Source of the DNA: Desulfotignum sp.
GTDB taxonomy: Bacteria; Desulfobacterota; Desulfobacteria; Desulfobacterales; Desulfobacteraceae
Direction of reading: 5' to 3'
DNA length: 64,000 nucleotides
Assembly: GCA_011389575.1 (NCBI GenBank)
Contig: JAABUB010000002.1
Location: 1 to 64,000, forward strand
Part shown: positions 2,862 to 41,029 of the stretch, piece by piece
How positions within the stretch are numbered: the stretch's first letter is position 1
Layout: the number at the start of each line of letters is the position of its first letter
Program-made: the position numbers and the translations under genes
Notes under the pieces: model-generated
The model's input: the letters and a program-made list of their open reading frames with translations, nothing else
Database searches by the model: none
What the model was told of the DNA's origin: nothing

Positions 2862-4481
2862 CTACATCCCCCAGACCTTGATATCTGCTCCCTGGTATGT
2901 TTCAGTCCGGCGGAAGATCTTGTCTTCCCAGGGAACTTTTACATCACGGTTGAAGATCACCAGGTGGCCATCTTTCGTACCGCAGGTGTCCATGTAACCA
3001 CGGGTCTGTTCCAGGCCCAGGGCAATGGTTTTTTCCAGGCTTTTGTGCAGCACTTTCAGCTCCACCACCACCTTCTGCACCGGGCCCTGCCACCGGGCCC
3101 AGTCCGGTTTCTCATCTTGTGCAGGTTCCAGGGGCCACAGCACCAGCAGGTCCACCCGCTGCCTGCCCAGGCCGTATTCCCTCTCGATCCTTCCCCCGGA
3201 ATTGATAATCCGCTGGAGAAATGCCTGGAGCAGCAGCTGGGGCCCGGCTTCCTTGTACTGGAACCGCTCCAGCCAGTGTGCGGAATGCTTCTGGAAAAAT
3301 TTCTGGAATGCGGCCATGAGTTTGTCCATATCCAGCCGGTTGTCCGGAGTGATATACCAGGCGGTCTGATGGGACAAAGTGATCTGCGTGCTGTACGTCA
3401 ACATCCGGGGAATGATTTCCCGGTAAATGGGGTTGGCGATGGCAAGGTGGGGTTTGCTGCGGATCAGACCCAGATCTGTCACATACTGCACATCATCTTC
3501 GGGCAGGTCCCCCGCAGCATCCATCCACCCGCTTAAAATGCCTGCCACCACCCGATGCACCCGGGGCTCCTGCAGCTTGTCCCCCAGCTGGTCCAGGTGG
3601 GTTTCCCGCCTGAGGATCAGGTTCTCCTTTGCCTGGTCCACCATCTCTTTGTTAACAGGCCGGCTGCGGTCTCTGCCCTCTTTCATTTCAAAACAGACCT
3701 CATAGGCCAGGGCATTTACCAGCCAGGGTTGCCCCTGGCTCAGGTGCCAGATGCAGGAGACGGCATCCGGTGTGAACGCCTGGCCGGTCTCTGTGGTGTG
3801 CTGCTGCAAAAGAAACCGTACCTCATCTTTGATAAAATCACCCATGCGAAGGGATTTTGCCTTGATATTAAAGGCACTGCCGCCGGTGATGATCTCTCTG
3901 CCACTGCCGGAGTGAATCCGGTAGTCGCGCACATCCCGCACCCCGCACAGAACAATGGACGAGGGAAATTGTCCGGGGCGCTGGGGGTAACCCGAGCGGA
4001 TCTGCCGCAGCACTGAAATCAGGGTGTCCCCCACCAGGGCATCGATCTCATCGATGACCAGCACCACCGGAAGGGCACTGGACTGACAAAACCGCGTCAG
4101 AGCCACTTTCAATGCGGCATGTTCACCAGATACAGATAACATTTCCGGCCAGTTTTCAGCCAGTAATGCATCCCCCAAATCCTGTAACGAACGCTCTGCC
4201 AGTTCCACCAGGATGTTTTGCATCCCCTTGGCCACATCTTCTCTGGCCGTCTGTGCCGTTTCCACATTGCAGTACAGTCCCCGGTACCGGCCCCCGGCAT
4301 TCAGATAATCCACCAGTGTCAGCATGGACGTGGTCTTGCCGGTTTGACGAGGGGCATGCAGTACAAAATATTTTTCCTGGGCGATAAGGGTTTCGATCTC
4401 AAAAAGATCAAACCGTTGCAATGGCGGCACTGTATAATGCATTTTCTCGTTTATCGGTCCTGCTGTGTTGAAAAACCGCAT
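2862..4481 (-). CDS. AAA-like ATPase with C-terminal PD-(D/E)XK nuclease-like domain
   Basis: A 539-aa protein. Residues about 1-290 form an AAA-like P-loop ATPase with Walker A (APRQTGKTTS) and a Walker B-like strand (VVLVIDEIDAL). The C-terminal ~140 residues carry RVDLLVLW followed by VVVELKVL, the D...ExK arrangement of PD-(D/E)XK nucleases. I start at the ATG at 4481, which gives the family-typical N-terminus MRFFNTAGPI. The track start at 4610 adds 43 low-complexity residues. The upstream AGGA is weakly placed. Proteins of this build are common in anaerobic bacteria, often in many dispersed copies, and their role is not established. It is a single gene, convergent with the gatB operon and downstream of the porin on the same strand. 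A defence or mobile-element role is speculation. Confidence 0.8.
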   Translation of the reverse strand: MRFFNTAGPINEKMHYTVPPLQRFDLFEIETLIAQEKYFVLHAPRQTGKTTSMLTLVDYLNAGGRYRGLYCNVETAQTAREDVAKGMQNILVELAERSLQDLGDALLAENWPEMLSVSGEHAALKVALTRFCQSSALPVVLVIDEIDALVGDTLISVLRQIRSGYPQRPGQFPSSIVLCGVRDVRDYRIHSGSGREIITGGSAFNIKAKSLRMGDFIKDEVRFLLQQHTTETGQAFTPDAVSCIWHLSQGQPWLVNALAYEVCFEMKEGRDRSRPVNKEMVDQAKENLILRRETHLDQLGDKLQEPRVHRVVAGILSGWMDAAGDLPEDDVQYVTDLGLIRSKPHLAIANPIYREIIPRMLTYSTQITLSHQTAWYITPDNRLDMDKLMAAFQKFFQKHSAHWLERFQYKEAGPQLLLQAFLQRIINSGGRIEREYGLGRQRVDLLVLWPLEPAQDEKPDWARWQGPVQKVVVELKVLHKSLEKTIALGLEQTRGYMDTCGTKDGHLVIFNRDVKVPWEDKIFRRTETYQGADIKVWGM

Positions 4482-4816
4482 ATTGTTTGTTGTATCCTGT
4501 GTTTTATCCTGTTTCCTATTCGTTCTGGTAGTTGTCAGCATAATGCTGATTGTCTTTGTAATCAAGAAATAATAGGATATATTTTGTGCTTCTTTCCTTA
4601 AACAGGGCATTTGGAAGCCAAAAAGGCTGGTTTAAGAGCGAAAATCAACACAAAATATACGTTTTCTCTTACCATTTCAGGTAATTGACGAGGTCCGACC
4701 CATAAACAAATCCATAAACAACAATGGCCCGGTGATGAATATCACCGGGCCATTGTAAAATTCAGGTGGTTGCAGTAGAACAGTGGGAACTTCTAAATCA
4801 GATTATGTAATCCAGA
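4482..4816. other. 335-bp intergenic region
   Basis: It holds the porin terminator (4721-4756) and a weak 11-bp inverted repeat (TATATTTTGTG at 4578 with its complement at 4649). I see no ORF with a ribosome-binding site. Confidence 0.5.
4721..4756 (-). terminator. Rho-independent terminator behind the porin gene
   Basis: A perfect 16-bp stem (ACAATGGCCCGGTGAT and its complement) closes a 4-nt loop. On the minus strand it is followed by TTGTTTATGGATTTG, a moderately T-rich tail. It lies 60 bp after the porin stop. Confidence 0.8.
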
Positions 4817-14569: not shown

Positions 14570-14657
14570 GGAGGAGTGGCCGAGCGGCTGAAGGCGGCGG
14601 TCTTGAAAACCGTTAAGTGTCAAAGCTTCGTGGGTTCGAATCCTACCTCCTCCGCCA
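14570..14657 (+). tRNA. tRNA-Ser (UGA)
   Basis: An 88-nt class II tRNA with encoded CCA. The acceptor stem GGAGGAG pairs with CTCCTCC, with discriminator G. The anticodon loop CTTGAAA reads UGA (UCN codons). There is a long variable arm, and the T loop is GGTTCGAATCC. Confidence 0.96.
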
Positions 14658-14672
14658 CAAAAAAATTGTCAC

Positions 14673-14764
14673 GGAGAAATGGCCGAGTGGCTGAAGGCGC
14701 TCGCCTGCTAAGCGAGTATGGGGGTAACACTCCATCGAGAGTTCGAATCTCTCTTTCTCCGCCA
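14673..14764 (+). tRNA. tRNA-Ser (GCU)
   Basis: A 92-nt class II tRNA with encoded CCA. The acceptor GGAGAAA pairs with TTTCTCC, with discriminator G. The anticodon loop CTGCTAA reads GCU (AGC/AGU codons). There is a long variable arm. It lies 15 bp after the first tRNA-Ser and shares its promoter. Confidence 0.96.
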
Positions 14765-22218: not shown

Positions 22219-22263
22219 TGTGCTGATACCGTGACATCGCTTTTGCTGCAATATGTGACATGC

Positions 22264-22308
22264 ACACCAGGGGAGAGCCCGAAGGCCCTTCCCTGGTGTT
22301 ATTTTATA
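22264..22308 (+). terminator. Rho-independent terminator after dsrP
   Basis: ACACCAGGG pairs with CCCTGGTGT around a small inner GCC/GGC stem and is followed by TTATTTTATATA. It lies 45 bp after the dsrP stop. Confidence 0.75.
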
Positions 22309-22310
22309 TA

Positions 22311-23969
22311 ATGAATGCACAGATGTTTCAAAACCGGAAAAAGGATCCGGATGAAATCTTCCCGGAAACCTTGAAAAACCGCTTTCTGGCCGCCATTTTT
22401 CAAAAAGACCATCAGGCTGCCGGAAAGGTCTATCATGCCATAGTGGACCAGGCCCTGCTGACACAACCGCCTCTTTCGGAAAATTCGGAAAAATTACTGC
22501 GCCAGATCCAGACCGCTTTCCGGCGGTTCAGGCCTTTTCTGGTTCCTGAGAAAAACCGGCTTTCCGATCTGTATACGGATCTGAACAGGCTGTTGGCTGG
22601 CATAGCCGGATCTGCGGGGAAAAGCGTTTGCCATGTGAAGTTTGCCGACTGGGAAACCCGCATGGACCTGTTGCCCTGGCAGATGGACAAGGTATGTGAA
22701 ACCGCCATCACCGTGCAACTGACCTCGGGGTGTTCCAATTTCTGCCGCAGGTGCAATGAATGGGCACTGCCGGGCATCAGGGCACATTTTTCATATGCTG
22801 CAGCCAGACAGATCCTGCACCTGCTTGTGGAACAAAACAATACAGATGCCGCCCTTTACGGGGCATCAGACCCGCTGGACTGGGAAGACGGCACCCATAC
22901 CCTGGCGGATCTGCTCATGCCCTTTTGTTTCAGCACCGGTTTCAGTCTTTTGACCAAGATTCCCAGAACCAGAGGCCGGGTATTAAAAAAACTGGTCCAC
23001 CACGGGATAAGCCTGTCTGTGAGCGTGACTGCAGCAAACAGAGACCGTATCACTGCATTGGAGACCCGGGCCGGCATACACCTGCAAAAGCAGCATGATT
23101 CCGATGACCTGCTCATTGCCGCCGGCCTGGATGAGGATTTCACCACTGTAAAATCTTCCATCACGGATGCCTATGGCACGGAAATCACTCCTGAAGGGGT
23201 GTTTATCATCATCCCCACATTTACCAGTGCCCTGCACCCCATGGGCCACAAAAAAATACCTGTCACCAGGAACACCCGATTTTTTCCGGTAAAAAGAATC
23301 GGCCGTCAGGCCCTGCTGGTGGATTATTTCAAACCCCTGGAAGTGGTGGGAGAAAAAAACCGGTCATTTCACCTGTCCGCGCTGCTGGATATCCAGGTGG
23401 AAACCCTTCTTCTGGATAACGGTTCCATGGACCTGTCACCCCCTGGTATGCGGAACCTGAAAGAATATTTCACCATTTTTGATGAAACCGCCCGGCTGCG
23501 GCGCAAACAGATGACCAGATCGGTTATCAGGGGACTGAAAAAACATTTTTTTTCTGACGGCAGGTACAGGGATCTGGATCCTGCCAAAAAACGGCAATAC
23601 CGGCATAAAATTGCAGTACACAGGGATTTTTGCAAAAAAAAAACGGTAAACGCATCCCGTATCAGTGCTGCGGCATTTTTCCTGCGGTCAGTCAGAGATT
23701 ATCTGGCAGCCAATGAAGACAAAACAGCCATCATTGCCCATTTGATTACACCGGAAGCTGACCGGCTGGAACAATGCTATGGCAGGATCGCACGGGCCTC
23801 AAACCCGGAACAGCAGTTTTCCAGTGATTTTTGTGATTTTTTTGAAATGTTCCGGTTTTATGCCACCGCCCTTGTGTTTGGCCGCCATAAACAGGCAGCA
23901 GATCGGTTTATCCGGGCCAATCCAGCAATCTATGATCCGGTGGCGGAGCGCTTTATGCCGTCCCGGTGA
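22311..23969 (+). CDS. Radical SAM-like protein of unknown function downstream of dsrP
   Basis: A 552-aa soluble protein. Near residue 150 it has TSGCSNFCRRCNEW, a CxxxCxxC motif that fits radical SAM [4Fe-4S] binding, followed by a barrel-like region (YGASDPLDWEDGTHTL and on). The N-terminal ~130 residues are helical. The C-terminal ~200 are basic and helical with scattered cysteines and no recognised accessory cluster. I do not recognise the subfamily. The track start at 22260 lies inside the terminator; I use the ATG at 22311, although no clear ribosome-binding site is visible. It shares the dsr orientation but lies behind a terminator, so co-transcription is doubtful. It converges on oppF. 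Confidence 0.7.
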   Translation: MNAQMFQNRKKDPDEIFPETLKNRFLAAIFQKDHQAAGKVYHAIVDQALLTQPPLSENSEKLLRQIQTAFRRFRPFLVPEKNRLSDLYTDLNRLLAGIAGSAGKSVCHVKFADWETRMDLLPWQMDKVCETAITVQLTSGCSNFCRRCNEWALPGIRAHFSYAAARQILHLLVEQNNTDAALYGASDPLDWEDGTHTLADLLMPFCFSTGFSLLTKIPRTRGRVLKKLVHHGISLSVSVTAANRDRITALETRAGIHLQKQHDSDDLLIAAGLDEDFTTVKSSITDAYGTEITPEGVFIIIPTFTSALHPMGHKKIPVTRNTRFFPVKRIGRQALLVDYFKPLEVVGEKNRSFHLSALLDIQVETLLLDNGSMDLSPPGMRNLKEYFTIFDETARLRRKQMTRSVIRGLKKHFFSDGRYRDLDPAKKRQYRHKIAVHRDFCKKKTVNASRISAAAFFLRSVRDYLAANEDKTAIIAHLITPEADRLEQCYGRIARASNPEQQFSSDFCDFFEMFRFYATALVFGRHKQAADRFIRANPAIYDPVAERFMPSR

Positions 23970-23993: not shown

Positions 23994-24818
23994 CTATCTG
24001 CCGTATTTAAATCCCGGCTGCACCTTGATAAGTTTTTTGGTATAAGGATGTTCCGGATGTCGGATAATATTTTCTGCGGTATTGACCTCAACAATATGGC
24101 CTTCGTTTATGACCGCAATCCTGTCACAAAGGTATCTGGCAGCCGCCAGGTTATGGGTGATAAACAAAAAGGTCATGCCAAAGGTGGTTTTGATATCCAT
24201 CAAAAGCTTGAACAACTGGATGGCAATGGTGGCATCCAGCATGGAGGTGGGTTCATCTGCCACGATAAATTCCGGCTCCACCACAATGGCCCGGGCAATG
24301 GCCACCCGCTGGCGCTGGCCACCGGAAAGCTGGTGGGGATACCGGTTATAAAAGGATTTTCCCGGAGACAATCCCACGGTTTCAAGGGTGTGGATCACCT
24401 TTTCCATCCGGGATTCAGGGGTACCGATCTTCTGCACCACCAGCGGTTCCATAACCGTTTCTGCAATAGACAGGTGGGAATTGAGGCTCTGGTAAGGATC
24501 TTGAAAAATCATCTGCACCCTGGAACGAAATTCTTTTAAGGCCCGGCCTTTTAACCCGCGGACAGGAACCTTGTTGAACACAATTTCACCGGCAGTGGGC
24601 TGCTCAAGTCTGAGCAGCAGCCTGCCAGCGGTAGTTTTACCGCTGCCGCTCTGTCCCACCAGACCGAAAATTTCCCCTGTTTCAATACAAAGATCAATAC
24701 CGTTCAAGGCCAGAACCGGATTCTGGTGTCCGGCAAACAGCTGTTTTCTGGGAAAATAGGTTTTGCTCACCCCTTTCATCTCAACCAGGGGCGATTTTTT
24801 TTTATCAGGTTTTCCCAT
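23994..24818 (-). CDS. oppF: Oligopeptide/dipeptide ABC transporter ATPase OppF-like
   Basis: A 274-aa ABC ATPase with Walker A GQSGSGKTT, signature LSGGQRQRVAIARA, Walker B EFIVADEPTS and switch His in ITHN. The short C-terminal extension (NIIRHPEHPYTKKLI) is typical of the OppF/DppF group. The track start at 24995 lies deep in oppD. I use the ATG at 24818, which has GAGGCGG upstream and overlaps oppD by 14 bp. It is the last gene of the minus-strand opp operon and energises import together with OppD. Confidence 0.9.
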   Translation of the reverse strand: MGKPDKKKSPLVEMKGVSKTYFPRKQLFAGHQNPVLALNGIDLCIETGEIFGLVGQSGSGKTTAGRLLLRLEQPTAGEIVFNKVPVRGLKGRALKEFRSRVQMIFQDPYQSLNSHLSIAETVMEPLVVQKIGTPESRMEKVIHTLETVGLSPGKSFYNRYPHQLSGGQRQRVAIARAIVVEPEFIVADEPTSMLDATIAIQLFKLLMDIKTTFGMTFLFITHNLAAARYLCDRIAVINEGHIVEVNTAENIIRHPEHPYTKKLIKVQPGFKYGR

Positions 24819-25788
24819 GGCCGCCTCTGATGATTTGTGGTTCACAGCAAAATGCTTTGTGGGTGCCGGATATCTCAATCCAGTCAGGTGCCTCTTTTCT
24901 GCAGACACCTGAACAGACCTTGCAATTGTCGGCAAACCGGCAGGAGCCGATGTCTGATAAAAGATCCGGGGATTCCTGCATGTCCGGAATGACAATATCG
25001 TTCAGGTTGTCCAAAGACAGATAAGAACCCAGCAGGCTGCGGGTATAGGGGTGACGCGGAGAGGTAAACACCTCTTTTTTGGTGCCTGTTTCAACAAGCT
25101 GACCGGCATACATCACACAGATCCGGTCGCATACGGAAGCCACAACCGCAATGTCATGGGAAATAAAAATCAGGCCGGTGCTGGTTTTTTGCTGAACTTT
25201 TCTGATTTCTTTGAGAATCTGGTCCTGGACAATAACATCCAGTGCAGTGGTGGGCTCATCCGCAATAATCAGATCCGGATCACAGGCCAGGGCCATGGCA
25301 ATGATCACCCGTTGTTTCATGCCGCCGGAATATTCATGGGGATAATCCTTCATGCGCTGCACCGGAATATCCACAAGATCGAACAAGTCCTTTAACCGGG
25401 CTGCAAGATCTGCGCTGGACATATCCGGCTGGTGGGTGATAATGGCTTCTTTGATCTGGTCCTCCACCCGGTGTACCGGATTCAAGGCATTCATGGCCGC
25501 CTGGAATATCATGGCGATTTTCGCACCCCTTACCCTGCGCCATTGTTTTTCTTTCAAAAGCACCAGATCTTCTCCCTGAAACTGGATAGTGCCGTCCAGG
25601 ATAACGGCATTTTCCGGCAGAAGGCCCATCAGGGCCATGCCGATGGTGGTCTTGCCGCAGCCGGATTCCCCCACGAATCCCAGTGGTCTGCCTTTTTCCA
25701 GATCAAAACTGATGTTGTCCACCGCCTTTAACAACCCTTTTTTGGTCTTGTACCCGATGGTCAGATTCTTTACAGATAAAAGTGCCAT
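24805..25788 (-). CDS. oppD: Oligopeptide/dipeptide ABC transporter ATPase OppD-like
   Basis: A 327-aa ABC ATPase with Walker [10 protein letters not shown], signature [14 protein letters not shown], Walker [10 protein letters not shown] and switch ISHD. The C-terminus carries the OppD/DppD-type cysteine cluster ([14 protein letters not shown]), which in relatives binds a [4Fe-4S] cluster. It starts four bases after the oppC stop. It pairs with OppF as a heterodimeric motor. Confidence 0.92.
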
Positions 25789-25792
25789 AAAT

Positions 25793-26704
25793 TCAGGACT
25801 GCCCCTCCTTTCTCAACCGGGGATCCAGCACCTCGTCCATGGCCCGGCCAAGCATGTAAAATGCCAGGGTCAAAAGGGAAATGCATACCCCGGGGGGTAT
25901 CAGCCAGTAGGGTGCCTGAAACATATGCCCGGATTTCCACACCCACTGGAGCATCATGCCCCAGCTTACCTGGCTGGGATCTCCGAATCCCAGAAAGGAC
26001 AATGCCGCTTCCACCAGGATGGCGGCAGTGACCCGGAAGGTCATGTATAAAAATGCCAGGGGCAGCACATTGGGCATGATATGCCGGAAAATAATACGCA
26101 GATGAGACGCTCCTGCCACCCGGGAGGCCTCGATAAACGGCCGGTGTTTCAATGACAGGGTCTGGGACCGGATCACCCGGGAGACCGCGGGCCAGCGCAT
26201 GATGGCAATGATGAACACAATGATCCAGATATTGAACTGGCCGAACAAAGAAGCCAAAATCAACAGAATAACCAGAGAGGGCAGCACCATGATGATATCT
26301 GCCGTACGCATGAGAAAGGCATCAAACAGGCCACCGGTGTAACCGGCCACCATGCCGACAAGCGTGCCGATGACAATACTGAAAAATGCTGCGGACAGCC
26401 CCACAATAAATGCCACCTTTGCCCCTTCCAGAAGCTGGGCCAGAAGATCTCTTCCCACATTGTCCGTGCCCAGCCAGTGGGTGAGGCTGGGGCCGGTGGA
26501 AACCCTGATATCAGGATCGATTCCGGTCATGGGATCATACATGGGACCGATAAGCGGCACAAAAAAAGAGGCAATGGCCATGAACATGAATACCGCCAGG
26601 ATGATCACACCGGTTTTTCCCAGAGGGTTTTTTATAAAAATCTGCCATCCTTTGTAAAACCGCTGCAGAGAATACTTGTTCAGCACAGGCACATCCTTTT
26701 TCAC
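25793..26704 (-). CDS. oppC: Oligopeptide/dipeptide ABC permease OppC-like
   Basis: A 303-aa inner-membrane permease with about six helices and the ATPase-coupling EAA loop (EASRVAGASHLRIIFRHIMPN). The N-terminal cytoplasmic segment and first helix followed by a periplasmic GTDNVGRD motif are typical of the DppC/OppC group. It overlaps oppB by one base. Confidence 0.92.
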   Translation of the reverse strand: MKKDVPVLNKYSLQRFYKGWQIFIKNPLGKTGVIILAVFMFMAIASFFVPLIGPMYDPMTGIDPDIRVSTGPSLTHWLGTDNVGRDLLAQLLEGAKVAFIVGLSAAFFSIVIGTLVGMVAGYTGGLFDAFLMRTADIIMVLPSLVILLILASLFGQFNIWIIVFIIAIMRWPAVSRVIRSQTLSLKHRPFIEASRVAGASHLRIIFRHIMPNVLPLAFLYMTFRVTAAILVEAALSFLGFGDPSQVSWGMMLQWVWKSGHMFQAPYWLIPPGVCISLLTLAFYMLGRAMDEVLDPRLRKEGQS

Positions 26705-27678
26705 TAATATGTAATCCTGGGATCCAGCCAGGCATACAACAGATCCACAATAAGGTTTGCCACCAGTACCACCAGGGCAATGAGCAGAAAACAGGCCTGG
26801 GCCAGGGGATAATCATTGTTGCTCACGGCAAATATCAGTTCTTTGCCAATGCCGGGCCAGGTGAAAATCTGTTCTGTCAGGGCACCGCCGTTGATGGAAA
26901 AGGCAAGGGAAAGTCCCACAGAGGTAATCACGGGCAGCGCAGCATTCTGGGCCGCATGTTTGTTGCGGATCACTTTTTCACTCAACCCTTTTGCCCGGGC
27001 CGTGATAATATAATCTTCTCTGAGAACCGAGAGCATGGACGAGCGCATCAACAGAAGATAAGAACCCAGATTGATGATAAACAGCGTCATCAGCGGCAGC
27101 ATCAGATGGTGAAGAACATCCAGTATCCGGATAAACAAGGAGGCATTTCCCACCCACAAAGACGGGGTCAGGACCCCGCCCAAAGGAAAAAGTCCCAGCT
27201 TGAATCCCAGAATCCACAGCAAAAGCAGGGCAAACCAGGGAATAAACAGGGTGTAACACACAAGGGCGGAAATGGACATGATATTGTCCAGAGACGAGCC
27301 TTTGCGCCAGGCGGCAATCTTACCCAGGAAAACCCCCACAAATGCAGCCAGAACCGTGGAGGTGGTGAACAGCAGAATGGTCCATTTGAGTTTGTCTAAA
27401 ATGATGGTGGAAACCTGTTCTCCATAATGAAAGGAAAACCCGAAATTACCGGTGAAAAAATTTTTCACATAAATAAGATATTGTTCCCACAAGGGTCTGT
27501 CCAGTCCCATCTGTTGGATAAGATGGGCCATGTCTTCAGGGGTGAGCATGGGATCCACCATTTTGGATATGGGATCTCCCGGAGACAAACGGAACAAAAA
27601 AAACAGCACCGTCAAAATCACAAAAAAAATGAAGGCAACTTCCACCAGTTTTACCAGAATATAGCTGGATTTTTTCAT
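26704..27678 (-). CDS. oppB: Oligopeptide/dipeptide ABC permease OppB-like
   Basis: A 324-aa inner-membrane permease with six predicted helices. Family signatures include FLFRLSPGDPI near the N-terminus, GLDRPLWEQYLIYVKNFFTGNFG, and the EAA-type loop ARAKGLSEKVIRNKHAAQNA. It forms the translocation pore with OppC. It lies 23 bp after oppA. Confidence 0.93.
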   Translation of the reverse strand: MKKSSYILVKLVEVAFIFFVILTVLFFLFRLSPGDPISKMVDPMLTPEDMAHLIQQMGLDRPLWEQYLIYVKNFFTGNFGFSFHYGEQVSTIILDKLKWTILLFTTSTVLAAFVGVFLGKIAAWRKGSSLDNIMSISALVCYTLFIPWFALLLLWILGFKLGLFPLGGVLTPSLWVGNASLFIRILDVLHHLMLPLMTLFIINLGSYLLLMRSSMLSVLREDYIITARAKGLSEKVIRNKHAAQNAALPVITSVGLSLAFSINGGALTEQIFTWPGIGKELIFAVSNNDYPLAQACFLLIALVVLVANLIVDLLYAWLDPRITY

Positions 27679-27701: not shown

Positions 27702-29459
27702 CTAATCTATCGGCTTAACCACGCACAGAGACCAGATGTTTCCGATGCCGTTCACTTTTTCCACCCAGCCTTCAAAGCGTTTGTTTACGGTGGCTTCGAT
27801 GATATGGGGATTGTATAAGGGATAATAGGGCACATCTTCCAGGAGCATTTCCTGCATTTTATAAATCATCTGCCTGCGTTTTTCAACATCTACAACCAGG
27901 CGCTGCTCTGCGGCCAGGGTGTCGAACGCCTCATTTGTGTATCCACTCATGTTCCAGCCATTGGGCCTGTCATTTTCCGAAGAGAAAAACGCCCCCAGAT
28001 AATCAGGATCCAGATTCAGTTTGCCGTATCCCAGGACAAATGCATCGAAATCGTGTTTTCCCTTGACTGTTTCCAGCAGGGAATTAAAGGACATGGGCCT
28101 GGCAAAGGCAGGCAGGCCAAGTTTTCTGAGCCACTCCTGGATCATGGTACCGGCAAAGGCCCGTTTGGGGTCATAATCCGCCGGAGGGGTCAGAATAACA
28201 AATTTGTCCATTTTTTCCCCGGAGGGCAGGAGAATGTCCGAGGGAGTGGCCAGTGTTCCATCATCATTTACCGGTGGTACTTCCCAGGAATATCCGGCAG
28301 ATTTGAGCATGTCCCGGGCTGCGGTGATCCGCTGTTTTTCGTCCATGCCCGCCCCGTATTTTCTCACATCAGGGTTATGCCAGAAATGGTTGCCCGAGGG
28401 TATAATGGAATCCATGGGAGTGCCGTAATCCTGAAGAATCCGGTTCAGAATGAACTGCTTGTCCACGACGGTTGCAACTGCCTGGCGCAGAATTTTGTCA
28501 TCAAAAGGGGGTCTGCGCAGATTGAATCCCAGATAATACAGGGCGCTTTTTTTATTAAAGTGCAGGTCTATATCGGCATTTTCTTCCAGATCCTGGATAT
28601 AGCCGGGCTGGATGTCCCACCAGTAATAATCGATATCCCCTTTTTTTAAAGCCAGAATCGCCACATCCGTGGTCCCGTAAATATTGAACAAAAGATTGTC
28701 CACATAAGGACCCAGATCAAAGCCTGCAATATTTTTGCCCTCCCCGAAAAAATAGGGATTTTTTTTCATGTGTATATAAGCGCCCTTCTCGTATTCATGC
28801 AGTATAAAAGGGCCGGTTCCCAGGGGCTTTTCCACCTGAAAATCCTGCAGGATACGCAGGGGTTTTTCTTTGGTCAAAGCATTTTCAGCCACAGGTCCCC
28901 ATTCTTTTTTGGACACCATGGGAGCGGTCATGACCCGTGACATGAAAATAGCGGAAGGCTCTTTTAAATGAAAGACCACGGTATGGGCATCAGGGGCTTC
29001 CAATTTTTCAATTATTTTCCATTTGCTGTAGTACCTGGGAATTTTAAAATCAAAAAACAGCTGCTTGGTGAACAGCACATCTTCACTGGTAAAATCGGAT
29101 CCGTCAGACCATTTGGCCTTTCGCAGATGTATGGTATACGTCAATGCGTCTTCATCAAACACCGGTTCTTCTTTTGCCAGCCAGGGAATGATTTCCAGGG
29201 TTTCGGGGTGACGACGGAAAAGCGGCTGATAGATCTGTGACAGAATGTTGCGCGAATTGATATCGGTACCCAGCCAGAGATTCAACGACCGGGGTTCTTC
29301 AGGCAGTCCGATTTTCAAAAAAGTGGTATCCTCAGATTTTTGACAGGATACCCCCAACCCTGTGATGACTATCAAAAAAACCGCCGGCAGCAGCCGTGTA
29401 AAAAAAATGTTATACCACCTGTGGGAAACGTTTTTTGGCATTGTCCTGTTTTGATGCAC
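27702..29459 (-). CDS. oppA: Peptide ABC transporter substrate-binding lipoprotein (SBP family 5)
   Basis: A 585-aa family-5 solute-binding protein. The N-terminal signal ends in a lipobox (GLGVSC), so it is probably a lipoprotein. SBP_5 landmarks include LPEEPRSLNLWLGTDINSRN, the KWSDGSDFTSEDVLFT motif and GTGPFIL. The start is either the GTG at 29459, with a strong AGGAG seven bases upstream, or the ATG at 29441. I favour the GTG, which overlaps the upstream ATP-grasp gene by 50 bp. The substrate could be a peptide, but nickel or other small molecules are also carried by this family. Confidence 0.88.
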   Translation of the reverse strand: MHQNRTMPKNVSHRWYNIFFTRLLPAVFLIVITGLGVSCQKSEDTTFLKIGLPEEPRSLNLWLGTDINSRNILSQIYQPLFRRHPETLEIIPWLAKEEPVFDEDALTYTIHLRKAKWSDGSDFTSEDVLFTKQLFFDFKIPRYYSKWKIIEKLEAPDAHTVVFHLKEPSAIFMSRVMTAPMVSKKEWGPVAENALTKEKPLRILQDFQVEKPLGTGPFILHEYEKGAYIHMKKNPYFFGEGKNIAGFDLGPYVDNLLFNIYGTTDVAILALKKGDIDYYWWDIQPGYIQDLEENADIDLHFNKKSALYYLGFNLRRPPFDDKILRQAVATVVDKQFILNRILQDYGTPMDSIIPSGNHFWHNPDVRKYGAGMDEKQRITAARDMLKSAGYSWEVPPVNDDGTLATPSDILLPSGEKMDKFVILTPPADYDPKRAFAGTMIQEWLRKLGLPAFARPMSFNSLLETVKGKHDFDAFVLGYGKLNLDPDYLGAFFSSENDRPNGWNMSGYTNEAFDTLAAEQRLVVDVEKRRQMIYKMQEMLLEDVPYYPLYNPHIIEATVNKRFEGWVEKVNGIGNIWSLCVVKPID

Positions 29460-30432
29460 TGATTTTCTCCTCTATAAAATCCACTACTTTGGTTTCAAGC
29501 CTCTGACTGTTAAACCGGTTTATCCGGGGAATGCCGCCGGGACTGATGCAATTGATTTCAACCAGTTTGTCGCCTATGATATCAATACCCACAAAAAAGA
29601 GGCCGTCTTTTCTCAGCTTGGGTTTAATACGGCGGCAGACCTCTTTTTGGGCCTCGGTGATCTCGTGTTTGAAGGCCAGTGCCCCGGCATGGACATTGGT
29701 ACGAAAATCACCTGAGATGGACCGCCTGCCCATGGCCCCCAGAATTTCGCCGTTGAGCAAAAGAATCCGGACATCGCCCTCTTCCTTGACCTGTTTTAAA
29801 TATTCCTGCACCATTATGGGCCGTCGTTCCGGATAGGGTTTGCCTGCCTTGACATAATAATTGATCAGGGAGTTGAGATTTTCCTGGTCCTGGTTGCTCA
29901 CCTTGATCACCCCGTGCCCCCCGTGCCCGTGCAGGGGCTTGATGACCATGGCCCCGCCAAAATCATCAATGATTTTTTTCAACCGGTTGGGATCCCTGGA
30001 CACATGGGTTTCAGGAATGATATCAGGAAAATTAAGAATATATGCTTTGCTGTTGCCGTTGAGCTGGCCCAGGGTATTGTTTACCAGAAACACCCGGTCG
30101 CTCACCGGTCCTAAAAATTCCAGCATCTCATAATTGATGGGCGGATCTTTTCTCAAAAACAGGACATCCAGGTCTGTCACTGTTTCAAATATCAGCTCTT
30201 CCTTATCCAGGCATTGGATCAACTCGGCCCAGTAGGCCTGAATGGAAGCATCTTTTGTCACTGAGATATGGCGCATTCTTGCCACCACTTCATTTTTGCG
30301 GACATACACATCATGGGGTTCGAGAAAATAGACCTCATGGCCCCGCTGGTTGGACTCATACATGATATGGGCAGTGGTGTCCCAGACCGGATCGATCTGC
30401 CGCAAATCATCCATTAAAAATGCGATTTCCAT
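29410..30432 (-). CDS. Glutathione synthetase-like ATP-grasp ligase
   Basis: A 340-aa protein closely resembling GshB: VLFLRKDPPINYEML (N-terminal domain), GGAMVIKPLHGHGGHGV and IMVQEYL (ATP-grasp), and FVGIDIIGDKLVEINCISPGGI (Mg/ATP site and substrate loop). GshB joins gamma-glutamylcysteine and glycine. The fold also serves other amino-acid ligations, so the substrate is not certain. I use the ATG at 30432; the track GTG at 30456 is the alternative, and the GGAGG between them suits neither perfectly. It heads the opp operon and overlaps oppA, which is an unusual pairing. No gshA is in the window. Confidence 0.82.
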   Translation of the reverse strand: MEIAFLMDDLRQIDPVWDTTAHIMYESNQRGHEVYFLEPHDVYVRKNEVVARMRHISVTKDASIQAYWAELIQCLDKEELIFETVTDLDVLFLRKDPPINYEMLEFLGPVSDRVFLVNNTLGQLNGNSKAYILNFPDIIPETHVSRDPNRLKKIIDDFGGAMVIKPLHGHGGHGVIKVSNQDQENLNSLINYYVKAGKPYPERRPIMVQEYLKQVKEEGDVRILLLNGEILGAMGRRSISGDFRTNVHAGALAFKHEITEAQKEVCRRIKPKLRKDGLFFVGIDIIGDKLVEINCISPGGIPRINRFNSQRLETKVVDFIEEKISASKQDNAKKRFPQVV

Positions 30433-30625: not shown

Positions 30626-31858
30626 ATGGGAAACACCCTTTTTATTCAATTTTTCAGCCAGACCGGCAGCGGGTGGTTTGACCTGTGCAACGGATTTTCA
30701 GATACCTGGGACCTGTGCCGCAGCAAAGGGGATTTTCTGTGGATTCCCCTTGAGCAGGAGACAGACCAATGGTATGACGAAAGCGCTTACACCCCTGTTT
30801 TTCTGCCCATTGAAAAAGGGACCGTATATATAAGCGCAAGTTATGTGAACCAGTTATACCAGGCCTATCTGTGGGCATGCCAGTATCCGGACATCCATTT
30901 TGTTGTGGGCGGTCCGGTGGCATCGGAACGGTATGATACAGCACCGGGGTGGCATTCCGTGCATTTCAAGGTGGAACATCCTTTGCCCTCCAACCTGGTT
31001 TTGACCGGACAAAGCGTTGAATCCCTGTTCGGGGTGCCTGAGTTTTCCGGCAGATGGCATCTGGAAGTACCGGAGCAGATCCCGGAAAACAACCGGATCT
31101 ATTTTTCCTATACCCTTGAAAACCAGTGCTATTGGAAAAAATGTCCGTTTTGTTCCATTGCCCAGCATTCCTCTGCGCATTTCCGGAAACGCAAGGTGCT
31201 GGATCTGGGCTTTACAGACCTGGATTACACCGGACACAAGATCGTCCGGCTCAACACCGGATCCATGACACCGGAACATATCAGAAACATTCTGCCTGTT
31301 CTGCCTGTGCGCCCGGATATGGAGTACCGGTTTTTCATGCGGGCTGCCGCAGCGGAAACCAGGGCCATGGAAGCGGCTGTATCCAGGATGAAAGGTTCGA
31401 TTCCGGACTGCACCCTGGGATTTGGCATTGAATTTCCTTCAGACCGCATGTGGCAATACCTGAACAAGGGAACCCGCATGGATGAAGTGATAAAAACGCT
31501 TACGTTCTGTACAAAAATCGGTTTCAAGGTCAATGCCAACGTCATTTTGGGCTGGAACAACCTGGTGGAACAAGACCTGCGTGACCTGGAAGGGTTCATG
31601 GAAAACCTGTCTGCACACAGTGTCACCACCCTTCAGCTGCGCTGGCTGTTTGCCCATCCCTATACCCGGATTTACGAGACCTATGACGGGGTACAAAACA
31701 GTATCCGGCTGGGGCCTTTTAACTGCGGGTTCAATGTAAGGGTCAACCCGGATCAGCAGGAACTGAACCAGCGTGCCGGCCGGATAATTAAAAAATACTG
31801 TGAAAAAAAGGGCATCACACTTCAGGGATACAAAAATTTGAACAAGGGACAGGCATAA
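30626..31858 (+). CDS. Radical SAM-like protein (B12-type architecture), unknown function
   Basis: A 410-aa protein. The N-terminal ~150 residues look like a B12-binding-like Rossmann fold (strands TVYISASYVNQLYQAY and HFVVGGPV) without an obvious DxHxxG cobalamin motif. The radical SAM part has NQCYWKKCPFCSI, a Cx4Cx2C cysteine triad seen in a group of B12-type radical SAM enzymes, rather than CxxxCxxC. Barrel strands follow (GFGIEFPSDRMWQYLNKGTR, VNANVILGW). A good GGAGGGG site precedes ATG 30626. I see no precursor-peptide ORF beside it. It is divergent from the GshB-like/opp operon and may share regulation with it. Confidence 0.78.
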   Translation: MGNTLFIQFFSQTGSGWFDLCNGFSDTWDLCRSKGDFLWIPLEQETDQWYDESAYTPVFLPIEKGTVYISASYVNQLYQAYLWACQYPDIHFVVGGPVASERYDTAPGWHSVHFKVEHPLPSNLVLTGQSVESLFGVPEFSGRWHLEVPEQIPENNRIYFSYTLENQCYWKKCPFCSIAQHSSAHFRKRKVLDLGFTDLDYTGHKIVRLNTGSMTPEHIRNILPVLPVRPDMEYRFFMRAAAAETRAMEAAVSRMKGSIPDCTLGFGIEFPSDRMWQYLNKGTRMDEVIKTLTFCTKIGFKVNANVILGWNNLVEQDLRDLEGFMENLSAHSVTTLQLRWLFAHPYTRIYETYDGVQNSIRLGPFNCGFNVRVNPDQQELNQRAGRIIKKYCEKKGITLQGYKNLNKGQA

Positions 31859-32004
31859 CTGTCAAACCTCTTGTCCAGCCTTTTTGGGGCAATGCAGTCG
31901 CATTGACAATAAAATGCAGATGGTTATCCTGATGAGAGGCATCACAGGCAATAATATTTGGATGCAAGCCGGACAACCGATATCCATCCGCCTTGGGAGA
32001 CCCG

Positions 32005-33435
32005 ATGATGTTCAGGAAAAACAGCAGAAATAACGGGGTCCGGGAAATCCTGATAATGGGGGTTTTCTGGCGGATTCTTTTTATTGAGGCGGTGCTTCTG
32101 GTATATTCCCTTGTTTATCGCTGGCTGACAGAAGATGCCGGCCCGATGGAGCTTTTCTGGTATGCCCTAAGAATTATGGTGCTGGTGGGCATTATCATTG
32201 TATTCATGGTGGTGAGCCTGAAACGGTTTCTCACCCGAAAGATCATCGATCCCCTGGAGCGGATCGCTGCAGCCAACAGGGAAATTGAAACAGATTTTTC
32301 CAGGGCAGGTACTGTCAATCTGCCCGGCGATACCCCGGATGAAATCACAACCATTGTCACCTCCAGAGCGGCCATGCTCAAACGGGTCATCCAGGTATCT
32401 GACCAGCGGCTCCACCTGGTGAATTTTATAAAAGAAACCTTTGGGCGGTATCTTTCAAAAAAAGTGGTGGAAGAAATTCTTTCTTCCAAAAGGGGCGGGC
32501 AGATCGGGGGCACCCGCAAGACCGTCACCGTTCTCATGTCGGATCTGCGGGGATTTACCAGCCTTTCAGAATCACGGGATCCTGAAGAAATGGTGCAGCT
32601 GCTCAACCGGTACCTCAAAAAAATGTCTGCTATCATCCTGTCATATGACGGCATTATCGATGAAATCATCGGGGATGCCATGCTTGCGGTATTCGGCGCC
32701 CCTGAACCCCACGAAAACGATCCGGAACGGGCCATTGCCTGTGCCCTGGAAATGCAGAACTGCCTGGTCCACCTCAATAAAGAGATCACAAAGGAAGGAT
32801 ATCCAGCCCTTGAAATGGGTATCGGCATCAATACAGGCAGTGTGATTGTGGGAAATATCGGATCAGAGCTGCGCATGAAATACGGCATTGTGGGTGATAC
32901 AGTCAACCGGGTGGCCAGGATCGAATCCAACAGCATCGGGGGCCAGGTGCTCATCGGTGAGTCCACCTGTAAAGCGGTCCATGCCACTTTAAAAACAGAT
33001 CCTCCCAAGACCATAATGATGAAAGGCATGAAAAAACCACTTGTTTTTTATGCGGTATATGCCATTGAGATGGAGGGAAAAACAATTGCCATAAAGGTGC
33101 CCGCAGCCCCCGGTCCCCTGCTGGACATCCAGATACCGGTGCACTGCTGGGTTATTCAGGATAAAAAACTTGCATCCCTCCCCATAGCCGGTACCACCCT
33201 TTTTATGGATGAAACCCAGATCCATATCCGGACCACGACCCCTGTCGCACCGCTGACAGATGTGAGGCTCAACTTTGATTTCTGCCTGGAAGCCCATTGT
33301 TTCGGTGACATCTATGCCAAATGCACAGCCATTGAAATGGTGCGCGGCAGCCATCACTGTGAGCTGCATGTCACTGCCATGGAAGAAAAAGACCGGGCTG
33401 TCATCAGAAAATGGATGGCAGAAGCAGCTGCCTGA
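32005..33435 (+). CDS. Membrane-anchored class III adenylate/guanylate cyclase with HAMP and PilZ-like domains
   Basis: A 476-aa protein. Two transmembrane helices (about residues 20-40 and 55-75) flank a very short periplasmic loop. A HAMP-like linker (KIIDPLERIAAANREI) follows, then a class III cyclase domain (about 160-350) with metal Asps in LMSDLRGFTSLS and IIGDAMLAVFG and the VNRVARIES Asn/Arg motif. The last ~100 residues resemble a PilZ-type barrel. I start at ATG 32005 with GGGAGA just upstream; 32008 is possible. It lies 122 bp before the SUMF1-like gene and two genes before a cyclic-nucleotide-binding transporter-like protein, which makes a matching effector plausible. Confidence 0.88.
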   Translation: MMFRKNSRNNGVREILIMGVFWRILFIEAVLLVYSLVYRWLTEDAGPMELFWYALRIMVLVGIIIVFMVVSLKRFLTRKIIDPLERIAAANREIETDFSRAGTVNLPGDTPDEITTIVTSRAAMLKRVIQVSDQRLHLVNFIKETFGRYLSKKVVEEILSSKRGGQIGGTRKTVTVLMSDLRGFTSLSESRDPEEMVQLLNRYLKKMSAIILSYDGIIDEIIGDAMLAVFGAPEPHENDPERAIACALEMQNCLVHLNKEITKEGYPALEMGIGINTGSVIVGNIGSELRMKYGIVGDTVNRVARIESNSIGGQVLIGESTCKAVHATLKTDPPKTIMMKGMKKPLVFYAVYAIEMEGKTIAIKVPAAPGPLLDIQIPVHCWVIQDKKLASLPIAGTTLFMDETQIHIRTTTPVAPLTDVRLNFDFCLEAHCFGDIYAKCTAIEMVRGSHHCELHVTAMEEKDRAVIRKWMAEAAA

Positions 33436-37709: not shown

Positions 37710-38840
37710 TCAGGCTGTGGAGGGGTCCAACAAAGAGGCAATGGTATCAGCCAGATCATCTCTTCCCTGTTTTCTGAGCAATGGTATCAGTGGCCGGTAA
37801 AAGGGAGGTCTGACCCGGATGGTAATATCAAATCGGGCAATATCTTCTGACTGGACTTCATCTGCTTTAAATGCCCGGGTTTTGTGCAGCAGCCCCAGTG
37901 CGGTAAGCTCGGTCATGGTACGCACACATTTTTCACATCTGCCGCAGTTGAGCAAATCCGGAACATTGGCCAGGCAGACCCTGAAATTTTGAAATGCCGT
38001 ATCCCACTCAGAAACGATTTTAATCTTTTCCAGCCGGGACAGCTCATAATCTCTGTGACGGATTCTCATGCCATAGCTGGAGTATTCCGGATCCAGCAAC
38101 GGATGGGAGCCGCAGGGGTGGAGATGGGGGATATCATAGGATGAAGCGATGAACATCAGATTGATCCGGCTGCTGAAACCATGGGCCATGGCAGCCAGCA
38201 CCGCGCCAAAGAAACTGTCCAGCCACAGGTCCCGTTCATCGCACAAATGGCGGATATTGGTGTATACCGGCACAAGCGTTGTGCCTGCATCCCGGGTGAT
38301 GCAGGATGCTGCAGTCAGGGCCCGGTCGAACACATGCAGTTTGGCGCCCCTTTCCTGCACCCCCCCGATATCGAATCCATGGAGAAAAAAACTGTCCCTG
38401 ACCCAGGCCGGATGGGTATCAGGATAATGCAGCCGGTTCAGGCGCAGGGCAGCCAGAGAATCCATGCCGCCGGACATGACCATGCCCGCACCGGGCTGTG
38501 CCGGGAGATTCTGGTGTTTTCGAATACCGGATTCTACGGGAACGGGAACATACCGCCCTTGTGTCCAGTGGGACAAAATATGCATGGCCACATGCACGCC
38601 TTCTTTGAGAAACGGACAGACAGCGCCTTCCACAAAAATGCGTTTTTCACCCAGATGCAGGGCCGGCAGCAGACACCCCACCAGGAATGCATCCGGATTG
38701 GCGCCAAATCCCCGGGCATATGCCACCGGGGTTTTGAAATAGACATCCTTGGCAGGTTGATCGCTTTGTTCGAAATCGACCCTGGCAGAGGCAGTGGCAA
38801 AATCACTGTCCTGTGTCAATTTTATATCGGTGATTTTCAT
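37710..38840 (-). CDS. PP-loop ATPase with QueC-like zinc-cysteine motif
   Basis: A 376-aa soluble protein. Residues about 1-115 are an N-terminal domain I do not recognise. The PP-loop ATP-pyrophosphatase domain begins with VMSGGMDSLAAL, and a C(x9)CGRCEKC cluster near residue 295 resembles the QueC zinc site. Such enzymes adenylate a carboxylate or carbonyl oxygen and then add ammonia or another nucleophile. It is far longer than QueC (~220 aa), and no other queuosine gene is nearby, so preQ0 synthesis is unlikely. It is the third gene of a minus-strand operon with a RimK-like ATP-grasp and a GNAT, which suggests a small pathway building an amide or peptide-like product. Confidence 0.78.
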   Translation of the reverse strand: MKITDIKLTQDSDFATASARVDFEQSDQPAKDVYFKTPVAYARGFGANPDAFLVGCLLPALHLGEKRIFVEGAVCPFLKEGVHVAMHILSHWTQGRYVPVPVESGIRKHQNLPAQPGAGMVMSGGMDSLAALRLNRLHYPDTHPAWVRDSFFLHGFDIGGVQERGAKLHVFDRALTAASCITRDAGTTLVPVYTNIRHLCDERDLWLDSFFGAVLAAMAHGFSSRINLMFIASSYDIPHLHPCGSHPLLDPEYSSYGMRIRHRDYELSRLEKIKIVSEWDTAFQNFRVCLANVPDLLNCGRCEKCVRTMTELTALGLLHKTRAFKADEVQSEDIARFDITIRVRPPFYRPLIPLLRKQGRDDLADTIASLLDPSTA

Positions 38841-38873
38841 AGGCGGTTTTTTGTCATACTGATTGGTGTTTTA

Positions 38874-39866
38874 TTATAATTCAGGTTTGGCTTTTTCCAG
38901 TGCACAGGTCCCGGCCGAAACCGACAGCACATGGGCAATGATTTTTCGGGCAATATCTTTTCCCGTGGCAGCTTCCAACCCCCTGAAGCCCGGGGAATAA
39001 TTCACCTCCACCACATGGGGAAGGCCCTCTTTTTCCACCATCATATCAATGCCTGCAATCTCCAGAGAACAGGCCCTGGCGGCTGAAACAGCCATGTTTG
39101 CCCACTCTTCAGGCGGATCAAATGCAATGGCACTTCCCTGCTGGTGGATATTGGTTCGAAAATCATTGTGTGCAGGTGTCAGCTGCATGGCACCGGCCAC
39201 CCGGCCACCGATCACAAGAATCCTGGCATCCATCCTTTCTTTGGGGGCAAAAAACCGCTGCAACACCAGCCCTTTTACCGGATCAAGCATGTTTGCAACA
39301 CAGGTTTTTGCCCCGCATCTGTCATCGATCTTCACCACCCCGTCCCCCCCCATGCCAGAGGGATGTTTAACAATGACCGGGTACCCGCCCAACTGGTCAA
39401 CAGCAGCAAAAAAGCTGTCAGACCTGGTGACAAAACAGGAATCGGGAACCCGAATCCCTGCCGCAGAAAGGGTCTGGAGGGTGATAAACTGGTGCCTGGC
39501 AATGGTCACTCCTTCCAGTCCGTTCACCAGGGGAATGCCCATTGCCTGAAACTGGCGCAGCACCACAAACCCGTATTCCCCCATGGGTGACCCCTGGCGG
39601 GGCATCACTACATCCGGCAAACCACCGGGGATACTGCTTTTCAGCAAATCATCTGAGTTGCCAGCCGGTTTGGTGCCGGGCATCGCCCCGAAGGAGATGC
39701 TGTCGTGGAAAAGTCCTCCCATGCCGGAATTCTGCTTTTCCAGAGAACAGATCAGCTGGTATGGATTGATGAGCTGGATCCTGTGGCCGGCTGTTCTGGC
39801 AGCTGTCTGCAGCCGGCCATTGGGATGAAACCCGAACCCGTGCACCGTGAGAATTCCGATATTCAC
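38874..39866 (-). CDS. RimK-like ATP-grasp carboxylate-amine ligase
   Basis: A 330-aa ATP-grasp enzyme of the RimK/GshB superfamily. Markers are GGYPVIVKHPSGMGGDGVVKI, LVLQRFF, DARILVIGGRVAGAM, a DFRTN segment and AGIDMMVEK...HVVEVNYSPGFRGLE. RimK-type ligases attach amino acids through acyl-phosphate intermediates. It overlaps the GNAT gene by four bases (39863-39866) and precedes the PP-loop gene by 33 bp. It is clearly distinct from the GshB-like gene at 29410. The substrate cannot be deduced. Confidence 0.85.
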   Translation of the reverse strand: MNIGILTVHGFGFHPNGRLQTAARTAGHRIQLINPYQLICSLEKQNSGMGGLFHDSISFGAMPGTKPAGNSDDLLKSSIPGGLPDVVMPRQGSPMGEYGFVVLRQFQAMGIPLVNGLEGVTIARHQFITLQTLSAAGIRVPDSCFVTRSDSFFAAVDQLGGYPVIVKHPSGMGGDGVVKIDDRCGAKTCVANMLDPVKGLVLQRFFAPKERMDARILVIGGRVAGAMQLTPAHNDFRTNIHQQGSAIAFDPPEEWANMAVSAARACSLEIAGIDMMVEKEGLPHVVEVNYSPGFRGLEAATGKDIARKIIAHVLSVSAGTCALEKAKPEL

Positions 39867-41029
39867 AGGCTGGTGTCTTTTGGGGTTTCCAAAGGTGAGA
39901 TCATGTGTGCCGGCATCCAGATGCCCATGTGTTTACCTGCCTTTTCACTGAAATATGTTGTAATTTTTCGGGTATTGTTTTGCAGGGCAATTTTCTGTGT
40001 GGCCAGGTTGTCTTCGTCAATAATGGAAAACACCCTGTATTTGCCGGCCCTTCCGGTCAACCCCTCAAGCAGTTTTCTGCCCACGCCCAGGGCCCGGTAT
40101 TCAGGCCGCACCGAGGTGTATCCCCGTTCCACAAATCCGGAAAAATCCACGCCTGTTGCTGTTTTCAGCCGGTCTGTCAAGGCTTTTCTGGGATGTTTCA
40201 GGCAGGAGTTTCCCACCAGCACCCCATTTTCCACAGCATATCCGATCAGATAGGCTTTTTCAAGGTTGGAGCGGACATGGGCCAGGTCCACGGAGCCCCC
40301 TGCCGCCACCATGGCGCAGACCGTATCCAGATATCCTTTCGGCAGATCTGCCGGCGGTGTAAAATAATAGGCAATATCCCGGCCCAGGGTAAGTAAATCA
40401 GTGCCATTGTGGCGCAGCCGGATCAGGTGATCCACAGGAAACCTTGCCAGACATGCCAACAGTCGAGCAGAATTTCCCAGAAGTTCCCAGGCCGGCCTGC
40501 CCGGCAGGGGCGCTGCCATATCATAGGCGCTGGCAACCGGCATATCATTTTCGGAAATATCATATGAATGCACAATGTGGGGGTTGTCCATGATAAATTT
40601 CACAACAGGTCCGACAGGCCTGTCCGCAAAAGATGCCGGAACTGTCACATGGTTCCATATTCCCAGCCTGGAAACCTGCCACAATAGTTGATCCGGTATC
40701 TTTGCCAGGTGTGGCGCACATTGCCAATGGATCAATTTCAATCCGTTTTCCCGCCATCCGGCCAGCTGGTTTTTCCCAACCGGTTTTTGGGATGAATCCA
40801 GACCGGCTGTGATCCCGAATACCATGGATACCGGTTTTTCTGCCAGCCATCGAGACAGACGGGCCATGCAGGACAACACATCCGGGGCTGGCCCCCCGGA
40901 TGCCGCAGCCTGAAAAAAAAACCCTGCTGCATCCCTGTATTCCTGCTGATCCAAATGCCGGAACAATGCATCCGGATCTTTACATGCAAAGGGATCCCTT
41001 GTATATATCTGTTCAATGCAAGAACTCAT
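39863..41029 (-). CDS. GNAT-family acyltransferase with long N-terminal domain
   Basis: A 388-aa protein. The C-terminal ~140 residues form a GNAT fold with the acyl-CoA loop in TSVRPEYRALGVGRKLLEGL. The N-terminal ~240 residues (GLDSSQKPVGKNQLAGW, HLAKIPDQLLWQVSRLG) form a separate domain I do not recognise. The track begins at a TTG at 41032; the ATG at 41029 is preferable. No strong ribosome-binding site is visible. It is the first gene of the GNAT/ATP-grasp/PP-loop operon and is divergent from msrAB. An acyl or aminoacyl transfer role next to the ligase is inference. Confidence 0.78.
   Translation of the reverse strand: MSSCIEQIYTRDPFACKDPDALFRHLDQQEYRDAAGFFFQAAASGGPAPDVLSCMARLSRWLAEKPVSMVFGITAGLDSSQKPVGKNQLAGWRENGLKLIHWQCAPHLAKIPDQLLWQVSRLGIWNHVTVPASFADRPVGPVVKFIMDNPHIVHSYDISENDMPVASAYDMAAPLPGRPAWELLGNSARLLACLARFPVDHLIRLRHNGTDLLTLGRDIAYYFTPPADLPKGYLDTVCAMVAAGGSVDLAHVRSNLEKAYLIGYAVENGVLVGNSCLKHPRKALTDRLKTATGVDFSGFVERGYTSVRPEYRALGVGRKLLEGLTGRAGKYRVFSIIDEDNLATQKIALQNNTRKITTYFSEKAGKHMGIWMPAHMISPLETPKDTSL

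Follow-up and report, generated by a model that had tools for sequence, protein, structure and literature searches.

A co-inherited gene set of ATP-grasp ligases, a predicted QueC-fold PP-loop enzyme, a GNAT protein and transporters in Desulfotignum and its relatives

What might be made by a short operon in which a GNAT acetyltransferase, a RimK-like ATP-grasp ligase and a PP-loop enzyme follow one another, and are these three genes the whole of the system? The question is raised by a 64,000-nucleotide stretch of DNA from Desulfotignum sp. (Desulfobacterota; Desulfobacteraceae; contig JAABUB010000002.1, positions 1 to 64,000), hereafter the window, for which a sequence-only reading had proposed that the trio builds an amide or peptide-like metabolite or a protein modification. 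ATP-grasp enzymes form amides via acyl phosphates, and GNATs acylate amines. We find that the trio belongs to a larger set of co-inherited genes, and that the complete set lies in the window within 22.3-41.0 kb, accompanied by genes for a nucleotide cyclase, for two radical SAM proteins and for an oligopeptide-type ATP-binding cassette (ABC) importer.

The three genes are kept protein-coding by purifying selection and are not chance open reading frames (ORFs), because the ratios of nonsynonymous to synonymous substitution rates (dN/dS), measured against four close relatives, are 0.12-0.16 for the PP-loop gene, 0.20-0.35 for the ATP-grasp gene and 0.33-0.45 for the GNAT gene; the N-terminal half of the latter is looser (0.34-0.55), with constraint remaining. 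Their coordinates agree with the compact single-strand arrangement described before, and the genes are indeed kept together in relatives. Across 48 Desulfobacterota loci, the PP-loop gene is immediately preceded by the RimK-like gene in 44, mostly at a distance of less than 100 bp, and in the other four a contig end lies within 152 bp; many of the compared genomes are fragmented metagenome-assembled genomes (MAGs), and the ORFs of the related loci were predicted with a simple caller. The GNAT gene is found further upstream in most of these loci. Two of them (L060, L067) have about 4 kb inserted between GNAT and ATP-grasp genes, and three (L064, L071, L077) have no GNAT gene near the PP-loop gene. 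At ~2.5-8 kb of L060 and L067, a sigma54-type regulator, a multihaem cytochrome c and a DsrE-like gene are seen between the GNAT and ATP-grasp genes.

The earlier proposal of a three-gene operon therefore describes genes that do stay together, but only a part of the unit, as the genes of an NTT-HEAT-cNMP membrane protein and of a glutathione-synthetase-like (GSH-S-like) ATP-grasp ligase follow them one for one. Presence was scored in 86 genomes of the family from lists taken from search tables, with orthologues of the NTT-HEAT-cNMP protein being at least 53% identical and those of the GSH-S-like ligase at least 69%. The PP-loop and NTT-HEAT-cNMP genes are both present in 36 genomes and both missing in 49, the PP-loop gene never being alone and the NTT gene once; the counts for the PP-loop gene and the GSH-S-like ligase are the same (36 both, 0 and 1 alone, 49 neither), and those for the PP-loop and GNAT genes nearly so (35 both, 1 and 0 alone, 50 neither). 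Taken together, the four genes are jointly present in 35-36 and jointly absent in 49 of the genomes; one 81%-complete MAG (G074) holds two of the four. The Fisher value for co-occurrence, ~2e-23, ignores phylogeny and overstates the case because the genomes are related. Inside two genera of mixed content, where 5 of 19 and 10 of 26 genomes are positive, concordance is nonetheless complete, and in two genomes (G021, G062) the parts are scattered over the chromosome, megabases apart, yet all present. The stand-alone radical SAM-like gene (30626..31858) is found in 29 of the 36 PP-loop-positive genomes and in one negative genome. In G070 (L076, 2858-3974) the PP-loop frame is broken in two and only fragments of the radical SAM-like gene are left, which suggests decay of the system there. 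Coordinates of all members of the locus are collected in the table.

Table. Genes of the locus and features of their products in the window
Feature	Position	Strand	Remarks
GNAT acetyltransferase gene	39863..41029	-	ATG at 41029; in-frame TTG one codon earlier, at 41032
GNAT protein domains	39863..41029	-	GNAT at residues ~206-388; degenerate radical-SAM-like N-terminus at ~1-205, without cluster cysteines and B12-binding half
RimK-family ATP-grasp ligase gene	38874..39866	-	GTG start; 4-bp overlap with GNAT gene
PP-loop enzyme gene	37710..38840	-	33-bp gap after ATP-grasp gene; 376 amino acids (aa)
PP-loop enzyme features	37710..38840	-	SGGxDS loop; C289-x9-C299-x2-C302-x2-C305; extra N-terminal domain of ~115 aa; predicted QueC-type fold
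NTT (TLC)-HEAT-cyclic-nucleotide-binding membrane protein, 1072 aa	34412..37630	+	Pfam domains
FGE/SUMF1-domain protein with N-terminal hydrophobic segment	33558..34415	+	4-bp overlap with NTT gene; recurrent neighbour
Membrane nucleotide cyclase	31993..33435	+	Guanylate_cyc, 104 bits; recurrent neighbour
Stand-alone radical SAM-like protein	30626..31858	+	CYWKKCPFC, Cx4Cx2C motif
Glutathione-synthetase-like ATP-grasp ligase	29410..30432	-	GSH-S_N and GSH-S_ATP domains
Oligopeptide-type ABC substrate-binding protein	27702..29459	-	adjoins GSH-S-like ligase gene in most loci examined
Two ABC permeases, DppB/DppC type	25793..27678 (ORFs 26704-27678, 25793-26704)	-	
Two ABC ATPases, OppD/OppF type	23994..25788 (ORFs 24805-25788, 23994-24995)	-	
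Second radical SAM-like protein (CSNFCRRC), tentative member	22260..23966	+	adjoins OppF gene

The PP-loop protein is, as the sequence-only reading had it, far longer than QueC (231 aa in E. coli) and has no queuosine gene nearby. Its PP-loop and four cysteines are invariant in 25 aligned homologues. QueC proteins likewise have the SGGxDS loop and a four-cysteine site (the CxxCxxC zinc site, a putative one in the window protein), spaced C-x8-C-x2-C-x2-C as against C-x9-C-x2-C-x2-C here, and differ in lacking the additional N-terminal domain. No family of the Pfam, NCBIfam or PADLOC scans is reached at cut-off: the match to Pfam QueC (PF06508) scores 11.2 bits (E 0.27; gathering cut-off 22), and PADLOC, including its qatC model, gives nothing at E 1. 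QueC motifs YxQxHxxE, VPxRN and YPDC (listed in PMC13329287) are absent, by eye, as conserved motifs of the alignment. Profile-profile comparison (hhalign) with E. coli QueC and AsnB aligns only the PP-loop motif, and sequence searches of the PDB with the PP-loop and GNAT profiles return chance or weak matches only. The AlphaFold model of the protein (pLDDT, the predicted local distance difference test, of 86) has QueC proteins as its top Foldseek matches in BFVD, a viral library (E 3e-6 and 5e-4), and nothing significant in the PDB. The label "QueC-like" can thus be kept for predicted fold and motifs, but not for family score; the protein appears to be a QueC-fold enzyme that the family test does not place in QueC. 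Unlike QueC, QatC and Cap9, it has no neighbours of the queuosine, cyclic oligonucleotide-based antiphage signalling system (CBASS) or qat type, and in place of qatA, qatB and qatD there are different genes. In QueC and asparagine-synthetase-like PP-loop enzymes, a carboxylate is first adenylated and then reacts with ammonia; the outcome is an amide, or a nitrile if a second ATP is used (PMC13329287, PMC13060819).

The ATP-grasp protein passes the RimK family model TIGR00768 (150.6 bits, cut-off 143.4), which bears out its earlier label at the level of a broad family, and its ATP/Mg residues (K167, E287, N289 and others) are invariant in 26 homologues. These two features are shared with S6 ligase, MptN, LysX and CofF, from all of which it differs in its gene partners and in passing no equivalog model of the RimK family in NCBIfam; the model of 30S ribosomal protein S6 glutamate ligase, for instance, gives 132.5 bits against a cut-off of 331. 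Apart from this broad RimK match, family cut-offs are unmet throughout the trio, so that none of the three genes could be assigned to a well-characterised unrelated pathway.

At the sequence level the GNAT domain scores weakly (18.4 bits, Pfam cut-off 20.7), but structural prediction shows it clearly: the model built for a long homologue (pLDDT 84.9) has many solved GNATs among its matches, at E ~1e-5 to 1e-6. Family scans reach no cut-off in the region before it, which had been described as an unrecognised domain of ~240 aa. Many relatives have a long form of 600-700 aa that starts with LLxHPPxxSP...YDANLDF, and the N-terminal 460 columns of its profile align by hhalign to B12-binding radical SAM proteins (L139, L140, L151, L154) with probability 99.9 and E 7.5e-33, the columns of the cluster-cysteine motif falling in a gap. 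The window protein is shorter; its residues 7-209 align, and of the degenerate domain it has just the latter part. Profile similarity accordingly identifies the N-terminus, of ~205 aa rather than ~240, as a descendant of a B12-binding radical SAM domain, that is, the remnant of a lost catalytic domain and not a new one. An intact fusion of 769 aa occurs in L145 (B12-binding, Radical_SAM at 1.4e-18 with CYWGKCAFC, and GNAT), while GNAT stands alone in L060, L067-L070, L096 and L143. This series, in which an intact fusion gives way to a remnant without the cluster and then to a solitary GNAT, illustrates clearly how a catalytic domain decays within a conserved system. As a guess, the stand-alone radical SAM-like gene may have taken over the lost function. 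The second radical SAM-like gene has homologues at the same place in G062, G020 and G024.

The second ligase just passes the NCBIfam glutathione synthase model NF003573 (278.7, cut-off 272) and stays below the cut-offs of TIGR01380 and PRK12458. It shares with GshB this match and both GSH-S domains, and differs in its setting, being in an operon with an oligopeptide importer and in carriers in most of which no gamma-glutamylcysteine ligase was found. In a search limited to two families of that enzyme, with other GshA types left aside, PF04107 is absent in 13 of 16 genomes, including the window's own (G000, 83% complete), and PF04262 in all 16. Because the partner enzyme was not found in most carriers, the GSH-S-like ligase probably does not make glutathione.

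All three domains of the NTT-HEAT-cNMP protein pass Pfam cut-offs (TLC 27.4 bits, cut-off 21; HEAT 48.6, 27.7; cNMP 60.1, 27.5), as in the NTT-HEAT-cNBD proteins known, with function unknown, from free-living bacteria, for which a link to cyclase-made cyclic AMP has been proposed (PMC5381601). The neighbouring membrane cyclase fits this proposal and is the likely source of the cyclic nucleotide. Unlike the proteins described earlier, the window protein is tied one for one, within the family, to a ligase set, which suggests a role beyond ATP uptake.

Since ATP-grasp, PP-loop and GNAT chemistry occur here together with genes of peptide-type import, we consider it probable, with modest confidence, that the larger locus produces and transports a small non-ribosomal metabolite derived from amino acids, in a multi-ligase pathway leading to an N-acylated, amidated, peptide-like product with coupled transport. 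Amide or peptide building, already suggested from the sequence, is still the best account of the genes. If all of them serve one product, the RimK-like and GSH-S-like ligases would link amino acids by activating carboxylates as acyl phosphates, an amine would be acylated by the GNAT, and the QueC-fold enzyme would turn a carboxylate via its adenylate into an amide, most likely with ammonia, or possibly into a nitrile. Membrane transport of the product, or of a precursor, would fall to the NTT-HEAT-cNMP protein and the Opp-type importer, and the cyclase may set the state of the transporter through its cyclic-nucleotide domain. More tentatively, and with less confidence than doubt, one can picture an undescribed Desulfobacterota pathway with two ATP-grasps, a GNAT and a QueC-fold amidating or nitrile-forming enzyme, the metabolite of which is exported and recaptured as a signal, metallophore or exchanged solute, with NTT-HEAT-cNMP as a transporter under cyclic-nucleotide control; NTT-HEAT-cNBD proteins of free-living bacteria would then gain a role other than ATP uptake. 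The literature searched holds no description of the gene set. Predicted multi-ligase peptide systems (PMC2922099 and related work) likewise combine peptide-ligase operons with GNATs, peptide-binding transport proteins and unknown metabolites; the portion of that work considered here centres on tRNA-synthetase-like proteins and cupins, and does not describe the PP-loop/RimK/GSH-S/NTT set. A co-inherited gene set of no known product is defined in common sulfate reducers; the product should be findable, carriers and non-carriers occurring within the same genus, and two puzzles, NTT-HEAT-cNBD proteins in free-living bacteria and QueC-fold enzymes outside the QueC, QatC and Cap9 groups, become tied to a concrete pathway.

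Several points weigh against a metabolite pathway of this kind. At the sequence level the case for QueC homology is poor, the Fisher values are inflated by relatedness, and the NTT-HEAT-cNMP architecture is widespread elsewhere (PMC5381601). The set also varies across the phylum, where the PP-loop gene is rare (fewer than 12 of 395 sampled genomes at E <1e-100). In another family (f85), locus L097 has NTT-HEAT-cNMP, GNAT, PP-loop and GSH-S-like genes in this order on one strand, and L096 and L108 are arranged similarly, with a divergent last gene; no RimK-like orthologue was found in the f85 genomes. In f57, f29 and f24, the ligase-ABC part is kept without a close PP-loop orthologue: genes for a RimK-like protein, a GSH-S-like ligase and an Opp-type ABC importer lie in the vicinity of a B12-binding radical SAM or B12-like-GNAT protein, although in f24 the GSH-S-like gene is at another place in the region. 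Additional ATP-grasps are present as well and, in some loci, an N-formylglutamate-amidohydrolase-like gene. NTT-HEAT-cNMP is close by in f57 and f24; the f57 neighbour of the NTT gene is a very divergent PP-loop gene in which the serine of SGGxDS is lost. In some loci outside the window's family, the B12-binding radical SAM protein or its GNAT fusion adjoins RimK-like, GSH-S-like and ABC genes in this order, accompanied by an amidohydrolase or by as many as three additional ATP-grasps. The parts may be separable, or else the product differs between lineages; such modularity suggests a family of related products, not one.

Loci of f29 (L151, 1-5258; L154, 2-3418) have extra proteins of ATP-grasp type, of which one ends in an L-amino acid ligase domain and another is circularly permuted, and in L151 a class III aminotransferase accompanies them. 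A GAF-domain protein of ~790 aa, not seen in the window, lies between NTT/FGE-domain and ligase/ABC genes in L120 (14671-17019), L113 (5732-8137) and L126 (5589-7937). Genome G240 (L101) has two tandem divergent PP-loop copies (~1e-105) and no GSH-S-like ligase; these, and matches of 1e-9 to 1e-39 in G113, G173, G254:C15 and G058, were set aside as belonging to other contexts, and a Modicisalibacter match (L079) was rejected as a chance match within a xanthine-dehydrogenase-like gene.

Protein modification, the other half of the sequence-only proposal, is left without positive evidence. In that case some protein of the cell would be the target of the QueC-fold enzyme and the RimK-like ligase, in the manner of QatC/Cap9 and RimK, and would be acetylated by the GNAT. 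RimK glutamylates S6, and the PP-loop protein resembles QatC in its extra N-terminal domain; protein N-termini are the targets of the QueC-fold enzymes of CBASS and qatABCD (PMC13279940, PMC13329287). The missing PADLOC match and the S6-ligase score, far below cut-off, nevertheless speak against such a role, the compact operons have neither a QatB-like partner nor a small precursor gene as a conserved member, and two ligases travelling with peptide and nucleotide-type transporters fit a small molecule better. We regard protein modification as unlikely.

A compatible solute similar to N-acetylglutaminylglutamine amide (NAGGN) would need acetylation by the GNAT, ligation by the ATP-grasp and amidation by the PP-loop enzyme, with recovery by the ABC importer; NAGGN synthesis (ngg GNAT/ATP-grasp and AsnO) uses these three enzyme classes in a matching logical order. 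The ATP-grasp also has a weak match to NAGGN synthetase TIGR03103 (30.3 bits), which nevertheless misses the cut-off of 569, and several carriers are from saline sediments, judging by record titles. Unlike the NAGGN system, however, the window locus has its enzymes in separate genes and no glutaminase domain in the PP-loop protein (Pfam scan), and such a solute would leave no place for the GSH-S-like ligase, the NTT-HEAT-cNMP protein and the cyclase. It seems an improbable product.

Thiol metabolism is less probable still. It would have the GSH-S-like enzyme make glutathione or a close analogue, which other genes modify or recycle, for example to glutathione amide, and could point to the NF003573 match and to a GCS2 gene in two f85 carriers. 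The lower scores against TIGR01380 and PRK12458 count against it, as does the absence of PF04107 and PF04262, the only GshA families searched, from the window's genome and from complete carriers G020, G021 and G024; glutathione itself is an unlikely product. That functionally different genes of shared genomic ancestry are merely neighbours by chance is most improbable: gene order in close genomes, seen among Desulfotignum loci, is shared by descent, and these bacteria often have genes of the cyclase, FGE-domain and NTT types, but the association persists while NTT gene order and strand vary, the core genes co-occur from distant loci, and the set remains while flanking genes (obgE, rpmA) change.

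Elsewhere in the window, a 582-aa AAA-ATPase-like ORF at 2865-4610 on the minus strand (AAA_22, 34.6 bits), the C-terminus of which is weakly PD-(D/E)XK-like, resembles ATPases of mobile elements or of the defence type, and a tandem pair of tRNA-Ser genes (anticodons TGA and GCT) lies at 14570-14764, inside a stretch called as a 123-aa ORF.

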